DNA of 64,000 nucleotides from Hoplostethus atlanticus (Eukaryota; Chordata; Actinopteri; Trachichthyiformes; Trachichthyidae). The stretch lies in the NCBI GenBank assembly GCA_034670405.1, contig JAXDDX010000004.1, positions 12,561,001 to 12,625,000 of the forward strand. Reading direction: 5' to 3'. The position numbers were made by a program, and so were the translations under genes. Below are positions 10,121-61,041 of this stretch, piece after piece. Each line of letters starts with the position of its first letter. Within the stretch, counting starts at the first letter, position 1. Under the pieces are notes generated by a model. That model was given only the letters and a program-made list of their open reading frames with translations. It made no database searches and was not told the origin of the DNA.

Positions 10121-13100
10121 TCAGTTCCAGCCGATGCCGAGGAGCTCACTACTGGCCTCCCACAGCCTCCTCGCCGTCTCCTCGCTCCTCCCCTGCGGGG
10201 CAACAAAGGCAGGGGCGCAGTCGCTGGAACAAAGGGAGAACAGCTATCACATAGAGGCTAACGGAGGTGTTGCCATCACTCTGGGAGTAGCGACCTCATT
10301 TCTGTTTTGACTCGTCATGTGTTATTTCTCAGAAGGACCGACCTGGGCAGAAACAAACTCCTGAAGACGGGCTTGCTTTTACAAAACGGGCACTTGAAAA
10401 CTAGAAGAACGAAAGAGGGCTCGCTCACAAGATGGCAAAGGCCGGGCTAAATAATGTGCTCCTCGTCCTTTTTTTTAACTTTATGTTTACATTTCTGGCA
10501 ATTTACAACGTATCCATGGCAACCGTAGAATAAGCTTAGATTCCTAGATAGGCAACAGTACAAGCAACAACAATAATCCAATTCCCTATGAGAAAGATAA
10601 ATGGGAAATGTACTTCCAGAACCTGAAGTTTCAGCTGTACATTCAACACTTTTTAAAAGATATATTAGAAAAAATGTCTGCGTGTGTGTGTGGGGGGGTC
10701 TAATACCATGGTGTAATCTTTTGTCATCTACCTGAAGTGTTTCCCAGAGATGGAGTGAAGTTCCTCCGCCACGGCACAGTAGATGGTTGTCTGCGCCCCC
10801 TCCCGCGGAGTTTTCAGGAACATGGCGAGGATGGTGAAGAGTATCGTCATGAGGGTGGAGTGTCTGGTCAGCTCCGAGTTCACCGTCCCCGGATGCAGTG
10901 AGTTCACCGTCACATTGCAACCTGCAGGCGACAGACAGCAGCGAGGTCAGTTGTTCCTCTGTCTAATCTGCAGTGTGAGGCTAGCAATCACCAATAATGG
11001 TATTACAGTGGTATGTTATGATAAACCAATTGAGCAAATGTGAGGAACTCCTTTTTGTGTGTGCATATAGGGAACATTTTGCCATGAAACCCTTCATTTA
11101 CACATCTAGAGCGTTTAAAAACTGTCACTGTCGAGCGGTTGGGGCGTGTTGTTGATGCTCTATAGTTGTATTTATTTCCTCACACAGAATTCACCACTAA
11201 TCCTCTCTTTGTTACGACTCCAGGGCAGAGCAGGTCATCCGTCCTTTTGCCTCATGCTGTGTGTGTGTGTGTGTGTGTACCTTTGAGTCTACGGGCCAAC
11301 TCCCTGGCAAAGAGCACGTTTGCCAGCTTGCTCTGGCAGTATGCTAGCCCGCTGTTGTAGCTGCCTTGGCTCTGCAGGTCGTGGAAACGGATCCAGCCGA
11401 AGTTGTGTGCCAGAGAGGAGACCACGACGATACGGGCCGGCGAGCTGCGCTTCAGCAGCCCCATCAGGAGGGAGGTCAACAGGAAGTGCCCTGCCAGAAG
11501 TAAGGAGTGTTTCAGTGATTAGAGCCCTAATCTTGATTGTAAAAACAGACTCTCAGATTCTCTTTTTACCTGCATCATTTTTTACCTGCAGTACTTGAGC
11601 GGTGGATCCTCTCAGTCAGCAGGGATTCAAACTATGCATCTTTTTTATTTGTGACATAGAGGTTGCCCACCTTTTGAAGCTGATGTGAAACTTAGTGATA
11701 TAAGTCTATACTATATGTTATAGTCAGTAGCATCAGACTGATAACAACTGAAGATAACAAAGATCAGAACTATTCCAAAAATATTGCTGGTTTTGTTTCA
11801 TATTGTCATATTTCATATTGTCTTATGGCGATCATTCATTGGCCATCATGGCATCACCCGCGTTTTATTCACCACTACATAACTGTAAAGCAGTCTTTTC
11901 AAAAATTGGGTCAGGACCCAAAGGTTGGCTGAGGCTATTATATGTTGGCAAAGCCTTGCAGTGTCCTTACAGTGTAGACTGGTTAGGTTTAGTAGTAAAA
12001 TGGTCATTTTTGTTTGATTAGGCTGATCGGTTAGTCAACCAACCAACCAATCACTGCTCAGGCTGTTTAAGAGATCTACTCCATTGCTCCCAATAGATTT
12101 CAGTCAAGTCTCACCCAAGTGATTGACTCCAATCTGCATCTCAAAGCCATCTATGGTTTTCATGTAGGGACACATCATCACTCCAGCGTTGTTGATAAGA
12201 ATGTGAAGCTGGGTGACCTCTGAAGGAGAATAAAAACATTGCAATTGTGATACCTGTTATAGGAGTCTAAATCAGGGCTCGGTGGGAAGATGCATGCATA
12301 CCTCTGAGAAATTTCTGTGCGAAGGCTTGTATAGAGCAGGTATCTGCCAAATCGAGCTCTCGAACCTCCACTTGTGCACTGTGGCACATGGCACAGATAC
12401 TGGCTGCAGCCTCCTCACCCTTTCTCACATCTCGGCATGCCATTATCACCCGGGCTCCTGTCATGGAACAAATAGTCAGCAAAGGCAGCACTTAGGCAGT
12501 TTGGAGCAGACTGTGTATATTATTAAGAATCTGTAGTATTATCAGCTATATAGGCAGATGTATAAAACAATGAGGGATAATGCTGCATTGTCTCAAACTT
12601 GAGGAAATATGTATTATTAAATCCCTAGGTCACCCACATGAACAGCAACTACCAGTAAAGAGTGCAAAGGTCAACGCCACAGCACTGAATGTATGAAATA
12701 TTTGTCCCATCATGTATGACATGACACGTATGATTACCTTACAGGCATTTAGCAGACGCTTTTATCCAAAGCGACTTACAATAAGTGCATTCAACATAGG
12801 TAGGCAAGAAAACTACTAATCACCAGAAATCGTAAGTGCATTTCCTTCCTAAACAAGCAACTAAGAGCATAACTAGTGCTAAGGTAAAAGTGCAATAAGT
12901 TAGCTACCTACTTTTCTTAAACAAATGAGACAAATAAGAAAATCAAATGAGCAAGAGCTAAGACAAATAAGTGTATCAAATAAACAAGAGCCAATAAACA
13001 AGAGCTCATACAAATAATTGACGACAAATAGGCAAGGCTAATTCAGTGGCTCTCTGTTGTCCAGGTATACGTGGGGCCCAGAGCATCACCTCTTACTGCC

Positions 13101-21604: not shown

Positions 21605-24600
21605 TTAGAGGCAGAGCTGCTCTGTGTCCTCCTTCGTAGAGGGAATATCATGGATGGGCATATGAGCTCCTCCTCTCGTCTGTCCCAGAGACGACGCAAT
21701 GACGTCGACCGCTAGAGCGGCAGTGGCCTCCACGGCTTCGCGGCTGGCCCCCACGACGGGGTTGACTTCCACCAGGTCCATAACAGACAGCAGGCCTGCA
21801 CATCAACACAATCAGATGTTAGATACAAGGATGTCACAATAAGAGGTGAGGTCCTAGGTCCAGGTCTGCCTCCTCAACCTCTTAAAGGAGAACTCCACTG
21901 TAAAACATTTAAGTGTTAAGAAACAGCTGTTGGCGATGCTCAAAGTAAAACCAGCGCAGCTACAATGGAGTTTAAAAGGAGAAATATTTCATGGCTCTAA
22001 AACATAACCGGTAAACGTCAGGTTTTGGGAGAAATCCATCGTAGAAGAAGAGAGAGACCAATTTCTCCACCAACAGTGGCCTCAATAGACCAGAATGCAG
22101 CCACAAGACGTGTTTTGAGTAAGGAGCACGACTCTCACTTTTTCTTGACTGGAAAAACTCTCACCCCACTATTGCTCTCTCCACCTACATGTATAAGCCG
22201 CAGCTATAACCCAATGCAACATGTTCAGGCCCGTTCTCTGGGTTACATTCTGGGGAATCAAATCACTAACTGAAGTAGAAGTAGACGAGGCAGGTTGAGG
22301 TACACCTCATCACAAAATAACTCCTGGAATGCATCATCCCAGATGGCTGATACCTAACAGTGTAAAAGTATCTGAGGATGGATCTTAAATTCTCCCACAT
22401 TACATGATTAGTAGTAATTTCAGGGCATGTTTTCTCTTTCTTTTTTTTGACACACAAAAAGTATCTAAAAATGGTTGTTGCTGCCACTCGTCCTGTCATC
22501 CATACCTGTGTTATGGATTTCCTCTGTGATGTAGATGCCCTCCCTGTAGGTCAGACCTCCATTCACTGGTGTTCCTGTGGCGGAAGCCAGAGACGGGTCG
22601 AAAGCGTCGATGTCAAAGCTCAGGTGGATTGGTCGCTGTTTTCTGTTCAAGTGGGTGAGAACATGAACATGGACCTTTAACTCACACGTGTGATTACACC
22701 TACAATACCAGACACTGGTGAAAAGACACTAAAAACTACATATGTGTCGCTCTTATCAAAGTCACAAGTGCTGTAAAATGAAACAAACAAAGTAAAGGAA
22801 ACATTTTTCACTGCTGGCTCCATCAGGACCCACTCAGTAGTACAAAAATAACACAAGGCTATGTAACAGTACATTTATAACAATATAAATATATTGACAA
22901 TAATCACGTTATCACTCTACGATGTTACATAAATATACCTTGCCAGAAGATGGTCAAAAGTAACTTCCATGACCCTTTGGATGCCAAGTCTGTCAATGTC
23001 CCTCATGGTGAAGTACTGGATGCCCAGGTTCTTCAGGATGTAGCTATACCGAACAAAATGAATCAACATCAACGACTTCTCGCTTCCGTGGTGAGAAAAC
23101 AAAAAATGACCTGCGAGGTAAAAGATGTAAAATGATATTTGTTTTACTCACTACTCGCCGGGGTCGACATCCCGCAGTCCGATGTACACCAGGTCCCTGG
23201 AGGAGAGGAATGGCTTCATCCAGGAGAACCCTGGGATGTCTGGCATCTGTGGCGGGTGGTTTTAAATAAAGAATGTAAGCATCTCGACAGAGGGGAAGAC
23301 TTGGAGTATTCAGGCTATCCAGGCCCCGGGGCGTAGGAATGCCCTACATGAGGAGCTTAGGCTGGCAAAATGACCGCTTAAATCACAAGTTTACACAATA
23401 TATATGTACACTACTGCTCAAAAGTTTGGGGTCACCCAGAAAATTTCACATTTTCCATGAAAACTCACACTTTTATTCATCAAATGAGTTGCAAAATGAA
23501 TAGAAAATATAGTCAAGACATTGACAAGGTTAGAAATAATGATTTTTACTTGAAATAATAATTTTGTCCTTCAAACTTTGCTTTCGTCAAAGAATCCTCC
23601 ATTTGCAGCAATTCCAGCCTTGCAGACCTTTGGCATTCTAGCTGTCAATTTGTTGAGGTAATCTGAAGAAATATCACCCCATGCTTCCTGAAGCACCTCC
23701 CACAAGTTGGCTTGGCTTGATGGGCACTTCTTACGTCCCATACGGTCAAGCTGCTCCCACAACAGCTCAATAGGGTTGAGATCTGGTGACTGCGCTGGCC
23801 ACTCCATTACAGACAGAATACCAGCTGACTGCTTCTTCTCTAAATAGTTCTTTGCCCATTTTAATCTTTTCCTTTTCTTGGCCAGTCTCAGATATGGTTT
23901 TTGCTTTGCTACTCTGCCTAGAAGGCCAGCATCCTGGAGTCGCCTCTTCACTGTTGACGTTGAGACTGGTGTTTTGCGGGTACCATTTAATGAAGCTGCC
24001 AGTTGAGGACCTGTGAGGGACCTGTGAGGGGCCTGTTTCTCAAACTAGAGACTCTGATGTACTTGTCCTCTAGCTCAGTTGTGCACCGGGCAGGGGCCTC
24101 ACTTCTCTTTCTATTCTGGTTAGAGCCAGTTTGCGCTGTTCTGTGAAGGGAGTAGTACACACCGCTGTATGAGATCACCAGTTTCTTGGCAATTTCTCAC
24201 ATGGAATAGCCTTCATTTCTCAGAACAAGAATCGACTGACGAGTTTCACAAGAAAGTCATTTTTTTCTGGCTATTTTGAGACCATAATCGAACCCACAAA
24301 TGCTGATGCTCCAGATACTCAACTAGCCTAAGGAAGGACAATTTTATTGCTTCTTTAATCAGCACAACAGTTTTCAATGATCAATTAGCCTTTTAACACG
24401 ATAAACTTGGATTAGCTAACACAATGTGCCATTGGACCACAGGAGTGATGGTTGCTGAAAATGAGCCTCTGTACACCTATGTACATATTCCATTAAAAAT
24501 CAGTTTCCAGCTATAATAGTCATTTACCATATTAACAATGTCTAGACTGTATTTCTGATCAATGTAATGTAATTTTAATAGAAAAAAATTGTGCTTTTCT

Positions 24601-27600
24601 TTCAAAAATAAGGACATTTCTAAGTGACCCCAAACTTTTGAGCGGTAGTGTGTGTATATATATATATATGCCTTTTGATTTATCTTATTGTTCCTATGTA
24701 TTATTAGTCTGTTCTATTATTCCCTACTGGGAATTACAACAGCTTGTTTAGTTTAAATGGCACTCGTCAAGACTAAAGGTTTCCCAACGTCTTATCTGAT
24801 GTGTGTGCTAAGGCGTTAGGTAAACCTGAGAACAAACAACCTGAGGCAAGCTCTATTGAATCTTAGAACTGTGCTCCCCTCACCTTGTCTTGCAGCTCTT
24901 TGAGCATGAACGCCACAGGCTGGCCGTGGAGGTTCCCTGAGGGTGAAGTCGTGGGCGTATTCACATCGGCATGAGCATCCACCCAGATGAGACACAGGTC
25001 AGGACACTGCTGGCTGTGGCCTTCCACTGACCCCATAGCCAGGCTACGGTGGGAGCAGATCAGTCTTATAAATACATGGCATTCATTTCAGTTCAGTAGT
25101 CCTATTTATTCCTACAGGGTCATTTTTTATCCAGTGTGTTATTTATAGTTGTATAGTGTGTGCTGGCGGAATGATCTGGAGTAAGACTTCCAATGTGCTT
25201 GTACTTATCGCAAATGGCCAACAAATCTCTCTTGAACTCTTGAACTAATTTTCGTGGAAGCATAAAAAGGAACCGTGTCAATTGCATTGCATCAGTTCAG
25301 GCGTTGCTGCTCATGCAAGTATGATGCATGTTGTGCAACTATTACGTGCGGTACTGTCCAACTCTCTTTTGCAATAGTTACCTGTGATCACCACCCAGCA
25401 TGACGAGGGTGTGTCCAGCACCGACAGCGCGGCTCACGGCGCCGGACAGCAGCTTGTTGGCTGTACCGACTGTGCGAGGGAAGGACACATCCATGAAGGG
25501 TTCGTCCTTCTCAAGGTGGTGGAAGCTGAGGTCACCGAAGTCGTGGACGGGGTAGTCTGAGAGAAACAACAGAAAACCGACATGAATTCAGGCACATTCA
25601 CATTTTACACTTTTTTAGGCATTTAGCTGAGACACTTGTTCAATGCGGATTACAGTGAGTGCACAGGTAGGGGTTCAGTGTTTTACTCTTCAGCAGGACA
25701 GGTTGGGGGGTGTCGTGTGTCATTTACTCTTTTCATAATCTGGCCTTTTGAGACTGTAACTAAGATTAAGGGCTATGCAACTAAACCTGACTTGACTCTA
25801 CCTTCTACGGACTGAACAACCTGGATCACACCCCGCCCCCCCCGACTGACGAGGGCGGAGTCATTAAACTGGTTGTGCACTTTCCATTCGCCCCATTTCC
25901 CACTTCTGCTCAGGTTTCAGTCCGTGCAGGTCACCCTGTGCTAAATGGATAGAGGAATAAAGACTGGAAAATTTCCACTTAGTGTAGGACGAAGTAAACA
26001 AGTGATGTGATCCACCACGTGAGCCTCGATGGGGGTGTAGCATTACTCTGCTGATCTCAGGGGAACCAATGTGGCTCCTCACTGCCATTCGTAGATGGGA
26101 CAGGAATAGCCCTTGTCTTGCGATCGTGAGCAGGTGTTGCAGGACAATTCAAAAAGTGTTGGGGCGTCAGTTCTGTTCCTATTCAACCTGAAATACAGGA
26201 TTCCAGCCGATGAGAGTACTTTTTAGTGGTTAAAACTCAAATTAAAATTGGATTGTCATGAATGGATATTTTTCATTTAAATTGTTTGGATATGATGAAA
26301 AACAAAATCCTTGGCGACCGGCCCCAAGCTTAAAGAAGGGGACAGATTCCCATGTGTTAAGATGACATGGTATTTAGTTCGGTCAGGGGTTTGGTTTCCT
26401 CCGTTGTGCTCAGGTGGTGACATGGCAGCTGTGAATCCTGATATTTAATATTTTTTTCCACTGGTGCCAAATTGACATCAGGCCATCAGGAAGATGACTT
26501 GTAGCCAACTCATTGCTTCCAACTTCAGCTGATTAAGGACATTTCTGAAAGTGAGACAGCTACAATTTATGACTTGTCACCTACCCCTATGAAATGATTT
26601 TTTACATGAAAGCAAAGCTTACTATTCATCATTATTATTATTATTATTAAGTTATTAAGTTATTTGTTATCTTAAGACTTCATATCTGCCTAGAAAAAGT
26701 ACAATTTTACATGATATGATCAATTGTATTTCTGACAAATCAATCAATCAAAATAAATAAACATCAGGCAACTTTTTTTTGTGCCTACGGATCTTTTTTA
26801 TTTTAGTTAATATGCACAGTAATAAAGTAGAGAAGTAGAGCGATAAAAGCGCAGTAATAAAACACAATGATAAAGTCATAAAATTTGTGCAGATGAGATA
26901 AAAAAAACAAGGGCCTCATCACATTGCAAATGAAATAAAAGAAACAAGGTCTGTGGGAGGTCTGTGGCAGGAAGAGGTGGAGCTGTTGCGTAACACACGC
27001 AACAGCCGATGTTTATCTCTTGTCCAGCTGATGACTGGCCAGACACGCTAGGATTACCTTGCAAAAATGACTTGCACACACTCTGTGAAGTCTATTGGAG
27101 TCTATTTTACGGGCTCCACAGGAAGCAATGCTGATTTCCCACTCCATTTTAAGAAAACGTGCACAATGCTGTAGCATCATGAAAGATCATTTGGCCTATA
27201 ATGTTCCTAGGGACTTACAGTGCGTGCCTGCGGTACCCAATAGTGAGTTTATAGTGACCTTATCCCATTTTATAATATTTGTATCTCCTATGGCATCACT
27301 ATAATATTCCTATAGGGACTTGTAGTGTGTTCGTGGTACTCAATAATGTGTTAATAGTTATCTTATCGTGGTTTATGGTACTTGTATCTCCTATGTCATT
27401 ATTATAATACTCCTATATAGGCTTTTCACACTTGAATATGTTAGCCCAGGGTTAACTTTAACCCTGGGTTATAATAGCCCTGGGTTAACTTATCTCACGT
27501 TTCACACTAGTTTTCTTTAACCCTGGGATAACAATTGACCCCGGGTATTCAGTGTTCAGGATTTCACACTGTAAGCTTGTAGACCCCGGGTTCACGTTTA

Positions 27601-29532: not shown

Positions 29533-30076
29533 GAGCAGCCTCCAGAACTTTCCACGGACGCAGCGAAATGGGGATTGGCAGGCATGTTTACTTATGGAGT
29601 TGACCTGGTTTTCTGTAGCCTACTCACGTGTCCAGAACTTCTGACTAAAACATATCTGATTTCATGACAAGCATGAAGACATCCAGCTTTAGTTCGCCGT
29701 GGATATACAAAGCATACTATTGGTGGTGTCTAATCCCCGGGCCCGTGTTAAACAGGTGCGCTGTGTTGTTTTTACTCAACATTTAGGGCAACATTTTCAA
29801 AGTATTTGTACTACTCAAGGATTTTTTTTTTTAATATAAAACTACAGAAAGAAGGCAAATATTCAACAATAGTTGCATGGTATTTTTCCGTTAAGCAAAA
29901 CATGTTGCTGACTAGCGACACAAAGTGGTTGCTACGCGACACATAACTACCGGTATAAATGGCGATGTACGTTTATCGGGTATTTTACAATGGTTTCAAA
30001 CTTGATTCAGCCAATTTATAATTTATAATTATATATATATATATATATATATTATATTAGAAATAATTTATAATTC

Positions 30077-30180
30077 CATAGACATATATACATGTATATG
30101 TATATATGTATATACATACATGTGATGTATATACATCACATATACATCACATATATACTGTATATACATGTATGTCTATG
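30077..30180. repeat. AT-rich palindrome upstream of rbm25
   Basis: Outer arms CATAGACATATATACATGTA and TATACATGTATGTCTATG pair imperfectly. A perfect 20-bp palindrome, TGTGATGTATATACATCACA, lies at 30121-30140. A cruciform could form. Confidence 0.7.
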
Positions 30181-30797
30181 TATAATTCACGGACACGGTC
30201 ATCGCGCAGGAAGTCGTTTTTTTTGGATATCTTAAAAGAGAACTCTTCCACTAACAAAGCATGAGCTCTGGCTCCCCCAAGTGTTCAAAAATGGTGACTA
30301 CGACAAACATTAATATCCCAAGATGCATTTCGAAAAGAATAGGTTCCAGTTGTTGGTGGCTACACGTTCTCTGCTAACGCACCGGGGACTGATATAGCGC
30401 TAACTTTCAAGTTTTTCTCTTTACTGTACTTCATGGGCCTATATTTGGATAGCGCATAAGAATATTTGCCACCGGCTATACTTAACACCTGACTACAGGT
30501 GAGTAAAATTATACAGGGCAGCTCTAGCTAACGTTAACTAGCAAGGCCATAGAGTAGCCAGGTAACGCAGTAGCTAGCGTTAGCTCAGTTAGCTAACGTT
30601 AACGTGGTAGATGGTTTGACTTTTTGACTAGGCAGACATACCACCAGACTAGCTTGGAAAGTTAGCAGTTTTGCTATCAAGCGTTAAATAACGACCTACT
30701 CAGTGTGACGAGTCTGTTATGTATCACCCGACCCAAACATAAGTAACGTCAACAGTTCTCATTTGGTCTTCTCTTGACCATCCTCTGTCTTCTGCAG

Positions 30798-33700
30798 GTC
30801 ACTGCATTCCTCAGGATGTCCTACCCCCCTCATCTCAACCGCCAACAGATTGGCATCCCGCAGTTACCCCCGAGGATTCCACCTCCCCAGTATGCAGGCT
30901 TCCCCCCGGCGGTCCCACCAGGTACTAAATACCCGAGTGGTCAAATCATGTATAGCTAAGGGCAGTGTTTCTTAAAAACAGCTACTGGACCCTTTATTAA
31001 AACGTAAAGGCAACACTTTCATCACCCAGTGCCACAGGTTTCTGTGCCCTGGCATGTCAGCACAGACCAGACAGGTGAGAGTGGTATTGCTGCAGAAACG
31101 AGGCCTTCATGTCTGTGTCAAGACTGTGACCAGGGCACTCACTTTTTGATTTTATATATGTGGGTAAGAAAGACTGGGTGATAAATGTGAACGCCGCTGT
31201 AAATTATCTGACACACTGTGCATGAGTAAGGTAATGCATTAATACACCTGTAGAGATAAGTGGATTATGGATACATTCTACCACTTTTGCTTTTTATAAA
31301 TGGATCTGCACCCAATGGACAAACTACAAACTACTGAAAAGGATGTCAAAGCATATCACTACATTTACCTGCATAGTAAACAAATAGAACAATCTCCTTA
31401 CCAATATTCTTTTGGGAAGCCTAGTTTTGGGTCAAGCGTTATAAACACTAACAATATTGCGAATATTAGGAGTTGTATAGACTATCACAGTGATTGTTTG
31501 TTTGAGTCGTATGTTTTGTTTCCACTTTCAGGTACCCCTATGATCCCGGTTCACATGGGTATTATGGCCCCTACACCCACAGTGAGTTAGAAACGTGTGC
31601 CTACTGCGTGCCAGCTGAAGAATCAGCTGTTCTGTATGATGTGCTATTCTTTGTATGATCAAAATACATTTACATTTTACATTACATCTCTTCTGTTGAC
31701 AAGTGTGCAGCTGATTCTAGGCAACATTTCATTGCTCATTTGTTTATTCTACAGTTGCTTTCTCTGGATTAGAGCACCACTTAAAAGTCTCCAATGTACA
31801 ATGTTATTGTAGTGATGGTGGCGTATGGTAGGTGTATTTTATTTGCTCTCCCTCTTCCCTCCCCTGTTGTAGGTCCTTGTCCCTACAATCTCTGTAGCAC
31901 AGAAGCCAATGGCTCCAAAGAAAGACCTGGGCGCAATCAGAGCCAAGGAAGCAGAGGACAGCAGTAGCGGCCCTACCACCACTGTGTTCGTAGGGAACAT
32001 CTCTGAAAAGGCGTCTGACATGTTGGTCAGGCAGCTTCTAGCAGTGAGTTGACCACACATGAAACGAGGATGAAATTATCTAAAATCTCACCTGTGTGTT
32101 GCATATGCCCAATGAAATAATTCCCCTTTTTTTTGTCCTCTCACAATGTAGAAATGTGGTATTGTTCTAAGCTGGAAGAGGGTCCAGGGTGCCTCTGGGA
32201 AACTTCAAGGTAAAAACAACACATCTATACTATGTGATAGCGTAGATTCTGAAGCTAAAATCTACCCCTCTGTTTTATACCCATTCCCTTGAAAAGTACA
32301 TCAGTGTTTACTGTTAACTGTTCCTCTTCTGAGTAATCAAAAGTTTTGTTGTGGTCTAACGTCTATGGCATATTCTATCTTTCTCTTCTTAACGTTTTGA
32401 AGCGTTCGGTTTCTGTGAGTATAAGGAGCCTGAGTCCACACTGCGAGCCCTCAGGCTTCTGCATGAGTTGCTGTTAGGTGACAAGAAGCTACTGGTCAAG
32501 GTAGATGCGAAGACCAAGGCCCAGCTGGACGAGTGGAAGGCCAAGAAGAAGAGTGCCAACGGGGTGTGTAATCCTGTTTGACTGCTTAGTAACAGATGAG
32601 AAGAACATTGCTCCGTTCTGGATAGTTTTCTCAAAACTGGTGAAAAGGTTCTGTGAAAATCCCTGTGATTATGTTGTTTGACATTCACCTTGATGACATC
32701 TGTTTTGTTTGCTACTCCCTCTCTCTATCCTTCCCTCTGTGTCTTTGCCGTTTTTTGGCTTTATCTTATAGGGAGCCAGTGGTGGGACAAAGAATGGGGA
32801 CGATGATGAGGAAGAGGTCCTTGACGAGGAAACCCAGCGTCGGGACCAGGTTGTGAAGGGGGCAATAGACGTCCTTATCCGAGAGTATGCCAGTGAACTC
32901 AATGCTCCCTCGCAGGACTCGGACAGTCACCCTCGCAACAAGAAGCGGAAGGAGAAAAAAGAGGAGGTATTTGCTAGCATATTGTGTGACAGAGTAACCT
33001 ACCACTCCCAGACATCTCCCTCGGTCAGGGCAGTAGGCCGGAGTCATTCAGGTGAAGAAACCGAGCACAGTTTGCTCTCTCCAGCTGTTCATACTACTTT
33101 GTGGTGTAAATCCTCAGAAGTGTCAATCACTAATTGAATCACTGATTGATGGGCGTAATTTAAGAATAGAATGACCCTTCCCTCATGACAGATGAATGGA
33201 CAGGCCCTGGAAAGTATCCAGTTGGCGAAAAATGGACAACTAAATGGATAGACACAAAAAAGAATCGTGAGCGAGGTGAAACGGTCTAATGACTGACCAG
33301 TGGGTATTGTGTTCATTGGACGGAGGCAAACAGATTACAAAAGGATTTAGACAACGCCCACCTCAAAAATGTTCTTATTCCCCGGTTAAATTGTTGAGGG
33401 TGAATCTCCCTTTAGGCTGCCTGGAAGATGTTTGGTTTCTGAAGTTGTAAACCCTATTTCATAACTGATACCTTGAGTTGTTTGTTTGGGATGGTTTGCT
33501 TGCGATTTGTAGGCGTGCACAAAGTGGTGATACTTATTTCTCATGCTGTAATCTGTTCGGTGTCTTATCTGTAGTGATCACTAAGTGTGTTTTTATCTCG
33601 TCTTATTCTCTTCTGTGTCAGGAGGATATTAATGCCATGGAGATGGAGGATGACAAGAGAGACTTGATTTCCAGAGAGATCAGTAAATTCCGGGACACAC

Positions 33701-36700
33701 ACAAGGTAATGAATTTACCTGCTCTTGTCACTCTCAAGTTAGGTTTTTGGAGAGAAACTACTCAACATTGTATAGTTTGAACATCCCCGGCAGCAACTGC
33801 AGCTGCAATTCATATAATTTATGGATGTAATGCCTCCATACAGCTATTCTCAGTTGCTGTCAAGTGGAGTTTAAAGGTCGTACACAGATTAGTCAGTGAT
33901 ATTCATTCTAATGGTAAAAGGATAGGAGACAATTGGAATGAATTCAAACATTTTATACCTTTTAAAGCCTAAGACTGTTCATATATCAGCCATTCACAGA
34001 TGGCTGTAGTTCAATATCTCCAAAATGGTTAGGAGTTGTCACTGTTCATAATGCTGATTTGAGACTAAAAGTTTTACCTCAGCGCAAGCTAAATTCATCA
34101 CACAAAGTGCATGGACGTAATGTTAAATTCCCTTTTAAAGCTAATCTATTGATTAAACCCCACCAATATGGTAGAGTTCATTTGGTGACTAAAGCAAGAT
34201 GAATCTCAGAGCTTTGGAAAAAGTTGCGAGGATAGGATGTAAGTATGAGCTTTCATTTCTATTTTACACATCCTGGGCGCTCCCTTCTGGAGGGCTTGCA
34301 AAGGGGCAACTGGCTCTCAGTTAGTTTCCACTAGCTGAGACTGACACCCACAAGGCCTGGTACCTATCAGTACCATACTAAGGTTTAGTAGCAACATTGA
34401 AAACAACAAAATGTTGGATTCATACATTAAGAATATTCCTGTAGTTTGTGGGTGTTTTTATTGACAGTAGATCAGCTGAGCGTGGTCAGCAATCTCCAGC
34501 CCTATCCATCACACTGAAATGTGACATGTTGTAGTCACACTCGGTCTGAGAAGGCCAGGGAGCTCAGTGAACCTCTGCAGGTCGTCAGATGATAAATGCT
34601 GTGTTTTGAGGAACACACACACAGACTGAATGAGCCTAACCACTGCAGCAGTTTGAACTGCAGGCTGTAACGTTACTAGAGCAGGGAGCGCCCCTCCACA
34701 GCACGCTGCGATCTGAAGACTATACAAGGTAAGGCCTTGTTGTGTTTGTCCTTTGTTTTCTTCTTCCTCCTATCTTATGTTTGTCTCTCTACTTCTTGTT
34801 CCAACTTTTGTTTCCCCCTCCTCCCCCCCCCAACTTCCTTAGTTTACCTATCAAGACACTGAGATATATATTGTTGTGCTGGTGAATTAGACTCAGAAGG
34901 ACGAAGCTGCAGGGTTCTTAGCTACGACATGGGCCATCAAACTGGTTTTCCCCACTGATACCTTAGTGGAATATTAGAAGGACAGGTAAGTAAAGGACAG
35001 CCAAGACATTTCTCAAGTTTTAGTACATCCATCTGGTGCTCTAAACAGGATAACCCCCGGACGCCACTAGACATACCTTAGATGTTCCTCCCCTGCTCCC
35101 TTTCCTTTGCGTCCTTCACTCAACAGGTGTTAGTCCCACATTCCAACACTGAAAAAAAAAAGCATATACAGTATTTATTTACAGCTGCTGGAGGAAGTTT
35201 GTTAAATCTGAGGGTTGTTTGAACTGTGGGCCTAACTCTGTTGAGTTGTATGTACATTTGTTGGGTTGGAGAGGCCAGATAGACACCAGAATACCACCTA
35301 CAGGTAAGACTGCTTAAATAATTAAATTTTCTTGTGACAAAATGGAATACATCTTATTTGTTTCACCGATAAATGTAAAGCCAAGTTGTTGATGTTGTGT
35401 ATGTGGATGAACTGTATTTAGATGAAACATCACAGGTATCGCTCAGGCATTTCTCCTCTTTATTTTGTCTTTACATTTGACCTGCTTTTCCTCCCAGACT
35501 TAGTCTATAGGATGTGTAGGGGCAGAGAAGCGCTGAAACCATAGTTCATCACCTGTAAGTTACACACCACCAGCTTGAACAGGATCCCTCTCTGCAGAGA
35601 CAGCTATGATTTTTGTTACGTTCACTAGTGAGAAAGAGGGCAAATGGTTATTGTTCAGTGTTTTAGATCCACCGTAAACACAGATGTTTTAGGTCACAAT
35701 TGCATAAATTTGTACTATCCAAATTTCTATCCCACAAGAGGCCACAGGTATTTTTCCTAAATGAGGTGTTCCAGTGCTGTGCAGAATCCCTGGCCTGCAA
35801 ATCCATTTGCGTATCAGGCTTTTATTTGAGTTTTTACACACTGGAAAAGAAATCAGGTACAGACGCTCGGTGGTTTACTATACTCCTGTACTATAGCAGG
35901 AGAGTACTTGTTCTCTGGTGCTTCCCCCCCCCCCCCCCCCCCTGCATCTCAGATGTCCATCTATAAAACACATGGGACCTGATTATGTCATTCACTTAGT
36001 CGGCTCTCTGCCACGTAAAGCTCATGCTTGCTGTAATCCACTTGGCACCCTTAGGTAAGACCGATCCAGCAAATGATGAAGTGGTGATCTGGTGTATAGT
36101 TAGAACCTGTTGACCTGAAGGTTCGAAGCAGACGTGACACTTGGCTTGTACTCATGATACATATGAGTTTTAACATATGCTGTTTGGTGGACGCTTTGAC
36201 CCCGAGTGCATTTTTAGCATGAATGGCCCAATTAAATGCCATGCTCTACGAATTGAACATAATTGAATGTGCATTTAATTTATCTACTTATTTAGCCACT
36301 TATTGTACCTGTTTATTTAGGGGGTGTTCAAACATTTTCTCTTCTCATATCTCTCGTATCAGTTCAAAAGCGTCTCTTTCCTGCGTTTGCCGAGCGCACA
36401 TTGATTTGGAAAGTGGACGGATATCGGCTTGACCAATAAATGTTCTCCTACAGCTTATTACATCAGAGCATTATCTCTGATCACCATAGAGCACGTAGTA
36501 ACAGCAGAGGACACGTTGACCTGTTACGTATATGTGGGGAAATCCATTCAATACTAGTGTATGTGGTAAGTGGGAGGACTGAATACTGGGGCCAGGACAG
36601 GAAACTAGCCTTTTTGTCTACAGGTAAACCCCCAGACACTTTTACAACTTTTCTTTAGTACATTTTTCCAAAAAGGATAGGAGCTTTAAATAACAGTGGT

Positions 36701-39700
36701 TGGTTACCTAGTAGAATATACACGCCGGTGTTCATTTCGGCTCCTACTGTAGGTACATGTCCTAACTTTGTTTTAGATACCTGTTGCTTGTTAGTCAGTG
36801 GGTCCTGAGTTGAGCAGTATCTCCGTTAAACCTGCTCAAGCACCAGAGCACCCTTCATGGAGGAATCATCAGGGCAGCCCCCCGCACCTCAAGGCAATGA
36901 GTAGCAGCAGTATGTGAGCATGGTTGACCCAGGGCCTGTAAACCACTTGTCATTATGTGTTTATTACCTGTTCTTTCATGCACGTTAGCAGATTTTCTGA
37001 ACTGCCTTTTTGACACTTTAAACTAAGTAGCTTATCCTCCCCCCCTTTCTTCCTGTTGGGCCCCTGCAGAAGCTCGAGGAGGAGAAAGGAAAGAAAGAAA
37101 AGGAGCGTCTGGAGCTCGAGAGGGAAAGGAGAGAGAGGGACAAAGAGCGGGAGCGAGAGAGGGAGCGCCGCGACCGCGAGAAGGAGAAGGAAAGGGAGAG
37201 GGAGAGGGAAAGAGACAAGGAGCGCGAAAGAGACCGGGATCGCGACCGGGAGCGGGAGCGGGACAGGGACCGCGAACGGGAGAGGACGAAGGAGCGCGAG
37301 AGGGAGCGCGAGAGGGAGAGGAGTCGCGACGTCAGCGAAGACCGCAGCAGATCAAGGTCAGTGAGAGGAGGATAACGTTTATTAATACTTTATTGATCTC
37401 CAGAAAAATTCTATTCTCACTTTACCATTTTATATATAGTGAAACCAGTGCATTAAAATCCAATCTTGTTTTCGACACTTCACCACCTTGCTAGGGCCAA
37501 AGGAACAACACGGACCACAACGGAAATAAGTCTATGACTTTTTTTTTTTTGTGTGTGCTACTGAGTTTTTCCTCAATGCATGTTTTTAAATGGAAACTAA
37601 TATTTAAACTGCACTAAAGCAAATTGCTATATGGTGTCCTGCAGAGAGAGGACCAGAGATGATAAGAAACGAGACCGTGAAGAAGATGAGGAGGACGTGT
37701 ACGAACGGAGGAGACTTGAGAGGAGGCTTAGGGACAAGGAGGCAGCCTACCAGGAGGTACGTTTCACATCCACCCTGTCATGTTTGAGCATGATGGGTTA
37801 CACACAATCTGACTAAATCTACTTTTTCTTGTCTTCTAAAGCGCCTCAAAAACTGGGAGATCCGGGAGAGGAAGAAGGCACGGGACTACAGCAAAGAAAC
37901 GGAGAGGGACGATGAGCGGCGGCGTGAAATGGTGAACATGAATGCATACCAGACCTGGGTCGTACCCTGTTGGGAAATAAGTTTTAGCATTTGTTTTATC
38001 CAACTTAAGAGTACCAGATCAATCAGACAATACAATGAGTTTTAGAGAGTGAAGACAGTCACAGCACAGTAATGGAAAGTCACTTTATCATACTTAACTG
38101 TTATCAACAACTTACCTGATGATAAATCGTCCTGATACAGTGAGCTCCAAGTGTGTTGAAATAAAGACTTAATAGTTTGCAAATACTATTTGACCCAAGG
38201 TCTGATGAAGTCCATCTTTTCCTATTTTTAACTATTTGTTGATTCTGGATGTACTAAATGTTATTGTGTGTTTAAATTCAGATGAAAGAGGCCAAAAGAC
38301 TGAAAGAGTTCCTTGAAGATTATGATGATGACAGAGACGACCCAAAATACTACAGGTGATACTACGCAAACTCAGGAGTGTGACATGATGTACATCACAT
38401 CGTATTTTCACGGTCTTAGGTTTTCTTTTGGACATGCATCCCCCATTCTACAGAGTTTACCATTCCCTGCTTTTTTTGTGTTGCTCATTTTCTTTCTCAT
38501 TCTTGACGCCAGGGGCAGCGCCTTGCAGAAGCGACTTCGTGACCGAGAAAAGGAGACAGAATTGGACGAGCGAGACCGGAAGAGGGAGAAGGAAGAGCTG
38601 GAGGAGATCAGACAGAGGCTTCTAGCGGAGGGTCACCCCGACCCTGATGCTGAGCTGCAGAGGGTGAGTCCACCTGGGTCGTTGAGAGGATGGCGTAGTG
38701 TTTTTTCCATGGATCTGTAACGTGGGCGCTCACAGGATGTTGCATTCCTCTAACTGTCCTGTTTGGTATGTGTGTGTTTTGTGGATTGAATTTATTTGAC
38801 ACATTTCAGTTCATAACATATAACAAAATAAATTATTCAGGATAACACAATAAAGCTCAAGAGTTTATTTCCATCGTTGTCTTTGGGGAAGATGGAAGGG
38901 GTTCTTTATTTATTTATAGTGTTTTTTGCAGTACAGGTGCAACACAACTCCCATTTGTCTATTGGAGATTTTCTCTCCTTGCTTTCTCAATCCAAGTCCT
39001 GATGCTGTTAGTGTCACCAGTCCCCAAAGATGATATACATATAAATGAAACTGGAACATGATGATTCAGAGTCTACTGTGATGGGATTGCTTCATATAAT
39101 GGGTCATGTGTATATTTGTAAAGATGGAGGAGGAGGCAGAGCGCAGGCGGCAGCCCCCATTGAAACTGGAGCCCGAGGAGGACGTGACCCAGGAGAAGGT
39201 CCACAGGGAGCGGGAGAGGGACCGGGATCGGGACCGGGACCGCGACCGGGATCGCGATCGGGAGAGGAGGGGGTCAGGAAGGCCAACCGAGCCGATGCCC
39301 CGAGGCCCACAGCCCCACTCGGACGACGATGTGGAGGAAGGGGAGGATGATGACTATCACGATGGTGAGGACTCGCAAGACGCCAAGCCACATCTAAAAC
39401 CGACATTGCGACCAATCACTACTGCTCCCTCGGTGTCTTCGGCCAGTGGGAACGCGACTCCAAACACACCCGGCAACGAGTCTCCCTGCGGCATCATCAT
39501 TCCAGGCGAGAACTCCCCTGAGGTCCAGCCTCCCGAGGAACACCGGCCTAAGATTGGTCTCAGTCTCAAACTGGGTGAGTGCAGTGGCAAACTAGGAATT
39601 CACGGCATCCTATCAGTATCCTTGCTTTGTGCCAGACTAAACTGACTGTCCTCCTTTTTCTACTCCAGGTGCCACTAATAGTCCTAGCCAGCCTAACGCT

Positions 39701-41215
39701 GGGAAGCGCAAGAAGCTGGCGACCGTGGATAGCGTTTTCAATAAGTTTGACGATGAGGAGGCCGATGAGCAGCCTCGCAAAAGGAAACTGGTGCCTCTGG
39801 ACTATGGTGACGACGACAAGAGTCTGGGGCTGGATGGGGCGGAAATTTCAGGGGGCAAAGGCAGCATTAATACGGAGGAGAAACGCAAGCACATCAAGAG
39901 CCTGATTGAGAAGATCCCTACTGCCAGGCCTGAGCTCTTCTCCTACCCCCTGGACTGGACGATGGTCGATTCGGTAAAAAGACTGTTTTTTATAATGATC
40001 TTCAAAAAGCTGAAGAGAGTAATTTAATGTTGCTTCTCCTGTTCTGATCAATAGAAATGCATCCATCACATGTCTAGTATGTCTTCTACTTGGTTTCACA
40101 GCCTGTCAGTGGAGCTGTAGTTCTAGTTCCTTCATGGGTTTATATCAGCATGTTGCCATGACCGTGCTTATTTATTATGACGTATTCAAATTCTTCTTTC
40201 TGTAGACTCTGATGGATCGCCGCATCAGACCATGGATCAATAAGAAAATTATTGAATACATTGGCGAGGAGGAAGCCACTCTCGTTGATTTTGTCTGTTC
40301 AAAGGTTCGTGATCATCCACTCCGATCTGAGGATAGTAACTTGATACTGAATTAGTAGTGACGTTTAGTTTAAATTGTTGCTCCCTTTGGAAAACATGAT
40401 GGTATCTGAATGTATCGTTAGTGATTCCACGATTCCTCTCTGCCTCCTGAATTTTGAGGCGTAGCAGTGAAGTAACTGAATCTTGTTTCTTCTCTCCCCA
40501 GGTGATGGCACACAGCACCCCCCAGGGTATTCTCGATGATGTTGCTATGGTGAGTAAAACCTGGTTGGGTCACAGAGCTAAAACCTGGTGTTTACTCGTT
40601 TTAGATTATTAATCTATTGGGATTGCCATTATTTGAACCTGTTGGGATTAGTTCTGTTCAATTCAAACCGCATCTCAAGAAGGGATATTTGGTGTGCAGA
40701 CAGGGTTTATAGTACAAAACATAAAAGCACAATAAAACACAAATCGGCAAAATATACACCCACATAGACCCGCATGAGTTGATCAGAGAAGGAGTCAATA
40801 GCTTGATGCAGTGGAATAAAAGGTCGATCATCATTGCAAAATACAAAATCTTGTAAGATGCTACATCATTTCATGTGCAAATTAATAATGTAATTGGAGT
40901 CGAGATAAATTAGTCCCTGCTTCCTTTTACTTTTGAGTTGAGACAATCTAAACCAATAAAGCCAAAAAAAAAAAGTAGTCTTTCAGGATATTTTCAGGAA
41001 GCAACAAGGTGAAAACCTGCCAAACCAGTATTTCACATAGCAAGTCAGATGGAGTCCTTTTATATATCTAATGGGTTGTCAGATGTAAAACGTTTATCAC
41101 TAACTGATCTATTTATCCACAGGTTCTCGACGAAGAAGCAGAAGTCTTCATAGTTAAAATGTGGAGGCTGTTGATATATGAAACTGAAGCCAAGAAGATC
41201 GGTCTAGTGAAATAA
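30798..41215 (+). CDS. rbm25: RBM25, RNA-binding splicing regulator (RRM + RE/RD-rich + PWI)
   Basis: Start ATG at 30816 (MSYPPHLNRQQIGIPQLPP). Coding exons: 30816-30921, 31532-31581, 31873-32043, 32152-32209, 32403-32563, 32772-32966, 33622-33705, 37070-37356, 37645-37756, 37842-37931, 38282-38355, 38513-38663, 39124-39574, 39669-39973, 40206-40304, 40502-40549, 41123-41215 (TAA). They give 844 residues; human has 843. A non-coding first exon ends at 30498. Visible domains: Pro-rich N-terminus, RRM near residues 87-165 (TVFVGNI; AFGFCEYK), a long Arg/Glu/Asp mixed-charge region from exon 37070-37356 on, and C-terminal PWI (RPWINKKIIEYIG). The protein binds pre-mRNA and U1 snRNP-associated factors and changes splice choice in speckles. 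Intron 33706-37069 is unusually long and is treated separately. The exon 32966/33622 junction lacks a short block I recall in the mammalian protein. Confidence 0.96.
33706..37069 (+). other. rbm25: rbm25 large intron 8 with candidate cryptic/poison exons
   Basis: At 3.36 kb this is by far the longest rbm25 intron here; the others are mostly well under 1 kb. Candidate exons with AG and GT borders: 34581-34728, 34843-34985, 35185-35303, 35498-35554, 35953-36054, 36454-36565. Donors: AAG|GTAAGG, CAG|GTAAGT, CAG|GTAAGA, CCT|GTAAGT, TAG|GTAAGA, GTG|GTAAGT. Several acceptors have strong pyrimidine tracts, for example before 34843 and 35498. Entered in phase 0, each meets a stop. No transcript evidence is available. 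Confidence 0.45.
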
Positions 41216-41610
41216 AGACCAGATTTCCCAGAGGAAGACGACCATATTTTCTGTCTCTGGCGCCTTGTTCCCTACAAACAGTTCTACTATCCATAGTTAC
41301 CGGCCCGGCGGACTGTTGAAATGGGCCCATACACCCCACTCCATTCCATCAGCAAGGAGCTGCTGCCGTGTATGTGTGTTTGCAAGGGAAAGCTTGAGCT
41401 GTGAACAACGAAGTGTTTGCACAAGCTCATTGCAAAAATTAAGTTTTGTTGTATTGGGTCCTTTGTTGATACTGTTGAGGCAAAAGCCAGAATTGCATTT
41501 TACCCATCTGTTTCCCAGTGTGTTGGACACATTCTGCTTCAATTCACCGTTGTCATGTTGAGGCACCGCTCCTTTGTGTGAACTAATAAATAAAATATGC
41601 CTTTTTAGGA
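41216..41610 (+). other. rbm25: rbm25 3' UTR with poly(A) signals
   Basis: AATAAA at 41585-41590 with an overlapping second copy at 41589-41594. Another AATAAA (41211-41216) overlaps the stop codon itself. The UTR is short, about 0.4 kb. Confidence 0.65.

Positions 41611-50490: not shown

Positions 50491-61041
<10,551 letters not shown>

Follow-up and report, generated by a model that had tools for sequence, protein, structure and literature searches.

Intron 8 of the rbm25 gene of Hoplostethus atlanticus probably forms a conserved unproductive-splicing module, perhaps one that acts through intron detention; judged from its sequence, we put the probability of this reading at about 0.6. The gene lies within a window of 64,000 nucleotides (nt) that was analysed as a whole (assembly GCA_034670405.1, contig JAXDDX010000004.1, positions 12,561,001 to 12,625,000 of the forward strand). 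Two elements of the intron, both also present in a second rbm25 copy of the same genome, carry the argument: E4, a well-supported candidate poison exon, and E0, a conserved donor element. A sequence-only reading of the window had proposed an array of six candidate poison exons (here E1 to E6), or a nested non-coding transcript, in this intron. The best conserved element, E0, lay outside those six candidates and was mentioned there only as the donor sequence GTAAGTAT.

The window contains rbm25 in full. Homology and splice-site fit gave a model of 17 exons with an open frame of 844 residues, in which the numbering of exon 8 and intron 8 presumes one non-coding first exon. The product has an RRM and a PWI domain (Pfam), and one stretch of it matches a PWI chain of known structure, that of RNA-binding protein 25 (3v53). 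Intron 8 is 3364 nt long, compared with 85-655 nt for the other 15 introns between rbm25 coding exons. It resembles decoy-type introns in being longer than its neighbours and in containing cryptic splice sites, among them five donors that score at least 9. A nested coding gene or a known RNA was rejected as an explanation of the intron, as Pfam returned nothing at E<=0.01 for five of its open reading frames and the region 33500-37400 gave no Rfam match at E<=1.

A genome search located the second rbm25 copy on contig C11; the sequence used for the comparison (L029) stops inside the exon that matches 39669-39973 of the window. Over seven coding blocks, 220 of the 260 residues were identical between gene and copy, as were 30 of the 74 fourfold sites. 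The silent sites are therefore saturated and the duplication is old; we infer an origin in the teleost genome duplication. In the second copy the same intron is again the longest, with 2771 nt versus approximately 95-527 nt for the other eleven, measured from the alignment borders.

We compared positions 30001-41400 with L029 by blastn and obtained three non-exonic matches with an expectation value (E) below 1e-3, all of which lie in intron 8. They correspond to E0 (approximately 4e-70), E4 (approximately 7e-16) and the donor end of E1 (approximately 2e-4). The E1 match was not listed when the search was set at E<=0.1 and appeared with a value of 1.9e-4 when it was set at E<=10, likewise with a shorter query. 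The next best non-exonic match anywhere had a value of 0.33, and the best match in a control with reversed sequence had a value of 1.2. Beyond about 34731 the MAFFT alignment of the two introns was unreliable, and local alignments were used instead.

E4 is contained whole in a conserved block (35478-35581) that is 78% identical between the two copies. In both copies it is preceded by a good pyrimidine tract and AG, with acceptor scores of 9.6 in the window and 10.9 in the second copy, and it ends at the donor ACCT|GTAAGT, which scores 6.9 in each. The length of 57 nt is the same in both. The second codon, 3 nt into the exon, is a stop in both copies as well, TAG in the window and TAA in the second copy. 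If E4 were spliced between its neighbours, the frame would end at residue 276, ten coding exons downstream of which would still follow. A stop with many exon junctions downstream is the classical setting for nonsense-mediated decay (NMD). These features argue for E4 as one well-supported poison exon.

The longest run of identical bases in E0 spans 64 nt, compared with 16 nt in coding exon 8, where 73 of the 84 bases are identical. The last base of the run is intron base eight of the donor GAT|GTAAGTAT, which cuts after 34238. The sequence-only reading had correctly recorded this donor sequence, although it starts at 34239 and not at 34242 as given there. In the 633-Mb genome, E0 was found at two places, the two rbm25 copies, and a repeat origin was rejected on this ground. 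Farther upstream of E0, the second copy has acceptors scoring 7.1 and 7.6, and the window has none that reaches 6. E0 may serve exon 8 as an alternative donor, may itself be an exon of very weak definition, or may be a platform that U1 binds and that is seldom spliced; the last option agrees with published accounts of decoy exons in detained introns (PMC12017769). An exact search for the core in prokaryote and viral collections gave no matches, a result that is uninformative on vertebrates.

A common RNA fold of E0 was rejected, as the two copies fold differently. Long-range pairing between E0 and E1 is not claimed: the energy of the duplex in the window was not unusual (25 of 300 shuffles were as good; 3 of 300 in the second copy). 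The stretches concerned are GC-rich and complementary in both copies, GGGCGCTCCC in E0 (approximately 34274-34284) facing GGGAGCGCCC in E1 (approximately 34684-34694), and they carry one matching change (C and G) in the second copy.

The composition of intron 8 was evaluated with a donor scoring matrix built from vertebrate frequencies. As a chance test, we used 206 half-overlapping segments of 3364 nt on both strands, genuine exons included, from 17 arbitrarily placed 10-kb stretches (two of them with 2500 masked bases) and the rest of the window. The motif AGGTAAG had been reported to occur four times within 33706-37069 (at 34727, 34984, 35302 and 36053), against a chance expectation of about 0.2. 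Both figures stand: genome-wide counts (35,373 forward and 34,684 reverse occurrences in 632.8 Mb) yield an expectation of 0.19 on one strand. None of the 206 segments reached four occurrences. Five donors of intron 8 score at least 9, a number equalled in two segments, and three score at least 10, equalled in eight. Markov sequences generated from intron 8 contained five donors of at least 9 in 4-7 of 500 runs and four AGGTAAG motifs in none of 500, and the reverse strand of the intron has one donor of at least 9. Moreover, three donors of intron 8 (11.2-12.7) outscore all 16 genuine rbm25 donors (3.4-10.0). The number of acceptor-donor pairs, seven, is ordinary, since 30 of the 206 segments have as many. 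Taken by itself, the evidence from this single locus amounts to a moderate donor excess.

The borders that the sequence-only reading had assigned to its six candidates are accurate, its coordinates being the first and last exon bases. All six also contain an in-phase stop, 3-45 nt past the end of exon 8, as it had stated; by a rough estimate, chance would place a stop in most stretches of such length. The acceptors of E1 to E6 score 5.5, 6.3, 4.5, 9.6, 9.2 and 3.8, respectively, those of E1, E2, E3 and E6 being weak to middling. The intron of the second copy has six donors that score at least 6.5, five of which pair in order with the window donors of E0 to E4, with 14, 10, 14, 10 and 13 of 15 bases alike. 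In a donor-order test on the six, 12 of 720 permutations were as good.

Conservation separates the candidates. Both splice sites are conserved in E4, and this was found for none of E1, E2, E3, E5 and E6. E1 is partly supported: its donor end is conserved, and its acceptor end less surely, the local alignment there scoring 28, above the 95% level of the null distribution (22) and below its maximum (29.5). E2 and E3 agree with the second copy in order and in short donor context. They are suggestive, because neither the ungapped test of 20-base contexts (control sites as good: 11 of 193 for E2, 114 of 193 for E3 and 188 of 193 for E1) nor the local alignment scores were significant. For the counterpart of E3, the window donor of E5 even fits slightly better (11 of 15 bases). 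E5 and E6 may be chance sites. Of the proposed array of six poison exons, one member (E4) is thus well supported and another (E1) in part, while E2 and E3 are suggestive and E5 and E6 lack support (Table 1).

Table 1. Coordinates of the rbm25 features discussed, given as positions in the window
Feature	Position	Strand	Remarks
Exon 8, coding exon before the intron	33622..33705	+	phase 0 end, ...SKFRDTHK; donor AAG|gtaatg, score 7.4
Intron 8	33706..37069	+	3364 nt, phase 0
E0, conserved non-coding block	34093..34312	+	87% of 222 columns identical in second copy
E0, invariant core	34183..34246	+	64 identical bases; ends exactly at eighth base of GTAAGTAT
E1, candidate exon	34581..34728	+	conserved at the donor end (34684-34731), less surely at the acceptor end (34564-34601)
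E2, candidate exon	34843..34985	+	donor context 14/15 alike, in order; not significant alone
E3, candidate exon	35185..35303	+	donor context 10/15 alike, in order; not significant alone
E4, candidate poison exon, 57 nt	35498..35554	+	second codon a stop; shares both splice sites, length and stop with second copy
E5, candidate exon	35953..36054	+	no counterpart detected in second copy
E6, candidate exon	36454..36565	+	no counterpart detected; inside stable hairpin 36440-36580
Next coding exon	37070..37356	+	phase 0; starts KLEEEKGKK

In the proposed mechanism, inclusion of E4, perhaps together with other cryptic exons of intron 8, would stop the reading frame after 276 codons, and the prematurely stopped rbm25 message would be degraded by NMD. 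E0 and the other strong donors would hold the U1 small nuclear ribonucleoprotein (snRNP) without a productive partner, and removal of intron 8 would be slow or the intron would be detained. RBM25 is associated with U1 and aids the use of 5' splice sites, which makes negative feedback the likely logic: more RBM25 or U1 activity would lead to more use of the intronic donors and hence to less RBM25. The use of E4, decay by NMD and feedback by RBM25 are steps that we infer.

Several results weigh against this interpretation. The motif CGGGCA, which we take RBM25 to bind in Bcl-x, occurs in intron 8 of neither copy. No credible acceptor lies near E0 in either copy; the best scores were 3.4 in the window (34060-34239) and 2.0 in the second copy (L029 3780-3961). 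As mentioned, E2 and E3 are not significant alone, their local alignment scores falling below the 95% level of the null distribution. Furthermore, the comparison is one of two sequences, with the age of the duplication judged from silent sites alone. Finally, according to PMC7733475, RBM25 is outside the seven of ten proteins with more retained introns in their own transcripts.

Precedents for such a module are given in several papers. RBM25 has been grouped with LUC7L3, PRPF39 and U1 (PMC7733475), and this association makes feedback on its own message a sensible assumption. Stop exons are frequent in splicing-factor genes, where they show turnover from one paralog to another (PMC4379411); RBM39, for instance, autoregulates through a stop exon, exon 2b (PMC10477243). 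Like the poison cassette exons of the SR genes and RBM39 exon 2b, E4 is a putative non-coding exon with an in-frame stop that lies within the intron of a gene for a splicing factor and is conserved between gene copies (PMC4379411, PMC10477243). Rbm25 intron 8 differs from them by the additional conserved donor element without an acceptor. The loop of RBM39 furthermore runs via a 3' splice site, whereas RBM25 acts at 5' splice sites. In Chlamydomonas, a member of the same gene family, RBM25, has been reported to have an alternative splice form that introduces a premature stop (PMC7534427); in contrast to intron 8, the alga uses an alternative 3' site. Among the open-access papers listed in the literature searches, none was seen to describe a poison exon or decoy for vertebrate RBM25; subscription papers and genome-browser annotation lie outside this scope and may already show one. 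E4 might add to the known stop exons of splicing factors, and E0 might be a variant. With E4, a U1-associated 5'-splice-site factor joins the splicing genes that have a conserved candidate poison exon, and its exact junctions are given here. What the usual picture of poison exons leaves unexplained is E0, which is long, invariant and a donor element with no acceptor nearby.

Other explanations give E0 and the strong donors a different role. Possibly, though we lean against it, intron 8 is a decoy intron, whose strong donors, together with E0, recruit U1, are rarely spliced and slow the intron or detain it in the nucleus, with E4 inclusion as a by-product or a part of the decoy. The great length of the intron, its strong donors with weak acceptors and the conserved donor of E0 without a good acceptor would all fit. 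PMC12017769 describes decoys that are bound and seldom spliced, with OGT intron 4 as one of its examples, and OGT intron 4 is likewise a long intron with cryptic splice sites in the gene of a regulated factor. However, the OGT decoy has weak splice sites, whereas rbm25 intron 8 has strong donors and one complete exon, E4, which has a good acceptor and looks like any normal exon. A bolder and rather doubtful proposal sees in intron 8 a U1-sensing decoy array. E0 would be an exonless donor, preserved at every base since it has to bind U1, together with RBM25 or LUC7L3, as a dead-end 5' splice site, and the ordered strong donors downstream and E4 would convert an excess of U1 or RBM25 activity into loss of rbm25 message. 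If this were true, splicing-factor feedback could be read mainly via solitary 5' splice sites.

It is unlikely that E0 is something other than a splicing element, either an intronic polyadenylation (poly(A)) site kept in check by the U1 site next to it or a transcriptional enhancer that contains GTAAGTAT by coincidence. Both copies of E0 do contain the hexamer ATTAAA (window 34152, L029 3873), and CstF-77 offers a parallel (PMC3708835): U1 controls a conserved poly(A) site in its intron 3, a long intron of an RNA-processing gene. Yet ATTAAA occurs elsewhere in both introns too, and the 64-nt run begins 3' of the hexamer and ends exactly with the donor. Moreover, in contrast to CstF-77, the host donor is not weak, its score of 7.4 being close to the average of the 16 rbm25 donors (approximately 6.8). 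Separate sense exons of a long non-coding RNA inside intron 8, an option of the sequence-only reading, would account for exon-like units on one strand. We regard them as very improbable, given that Rfam yielded no match in the region and that E4 keeps its stop in the frame of the host. Least probable of all is that the six candidates are all chance pseudo-exons. The ordinary number of acceptor-donor pairs and the missing counterparts of E5 and E6 agree with such an origin, which may indeed apply to E5, E6 and possibly E2 and E3, but the matches of E4 and E0 are not chance.

A repeat origin of the intron beyond E0 found no support, no other match at E<=0.01 being obtained in the 270,559 bases searched, of which 16,303 belong to the second copy. 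Duplication of exons within the intron was rejected, since its direct repeats comprise three short families of 16-23 nt only, in one of which the E3 donor context is paired with that of E5 (13 of 16 bases alike).

The hairpin at 36440-36580 that encloses E6 has a z score of -3.69, with 0 of 200 shuffles as good; it was one of seven pieces folded. It could be the remnant of a small mobile element, and no further copy was found in the 270,559 bases. At 36608-36632, an acceptor scoring 11.0 abuts the donor GTAAAC (7.5) at 36624, an arrangement reminiscent of a recursive splice site or one of zero length. Recursive splicing at 36624 was rejected, as the site has no counterpart in the second copy.

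Elsewhere in the window, the sole Rfam match at gathering score was a UnaL2 element, the 3' element of a long interspersed element (LINE), at 12739-12793 on the minus strand. An array of the triplet AGT extends over 59937-60814, with approximately 292 units and 75% matches. An open frame of 157 amino acids at 23571-24044 on the minus strand resembles a piece of a Tc1-type transposase. The neighbouring open frames at approximately 22465-25087 on the minus strand and from 42658 onward on the plus strand resemble arginase and SLC39A9, and together with rbm25 they are reminiscent of the gene order of human 14q24.

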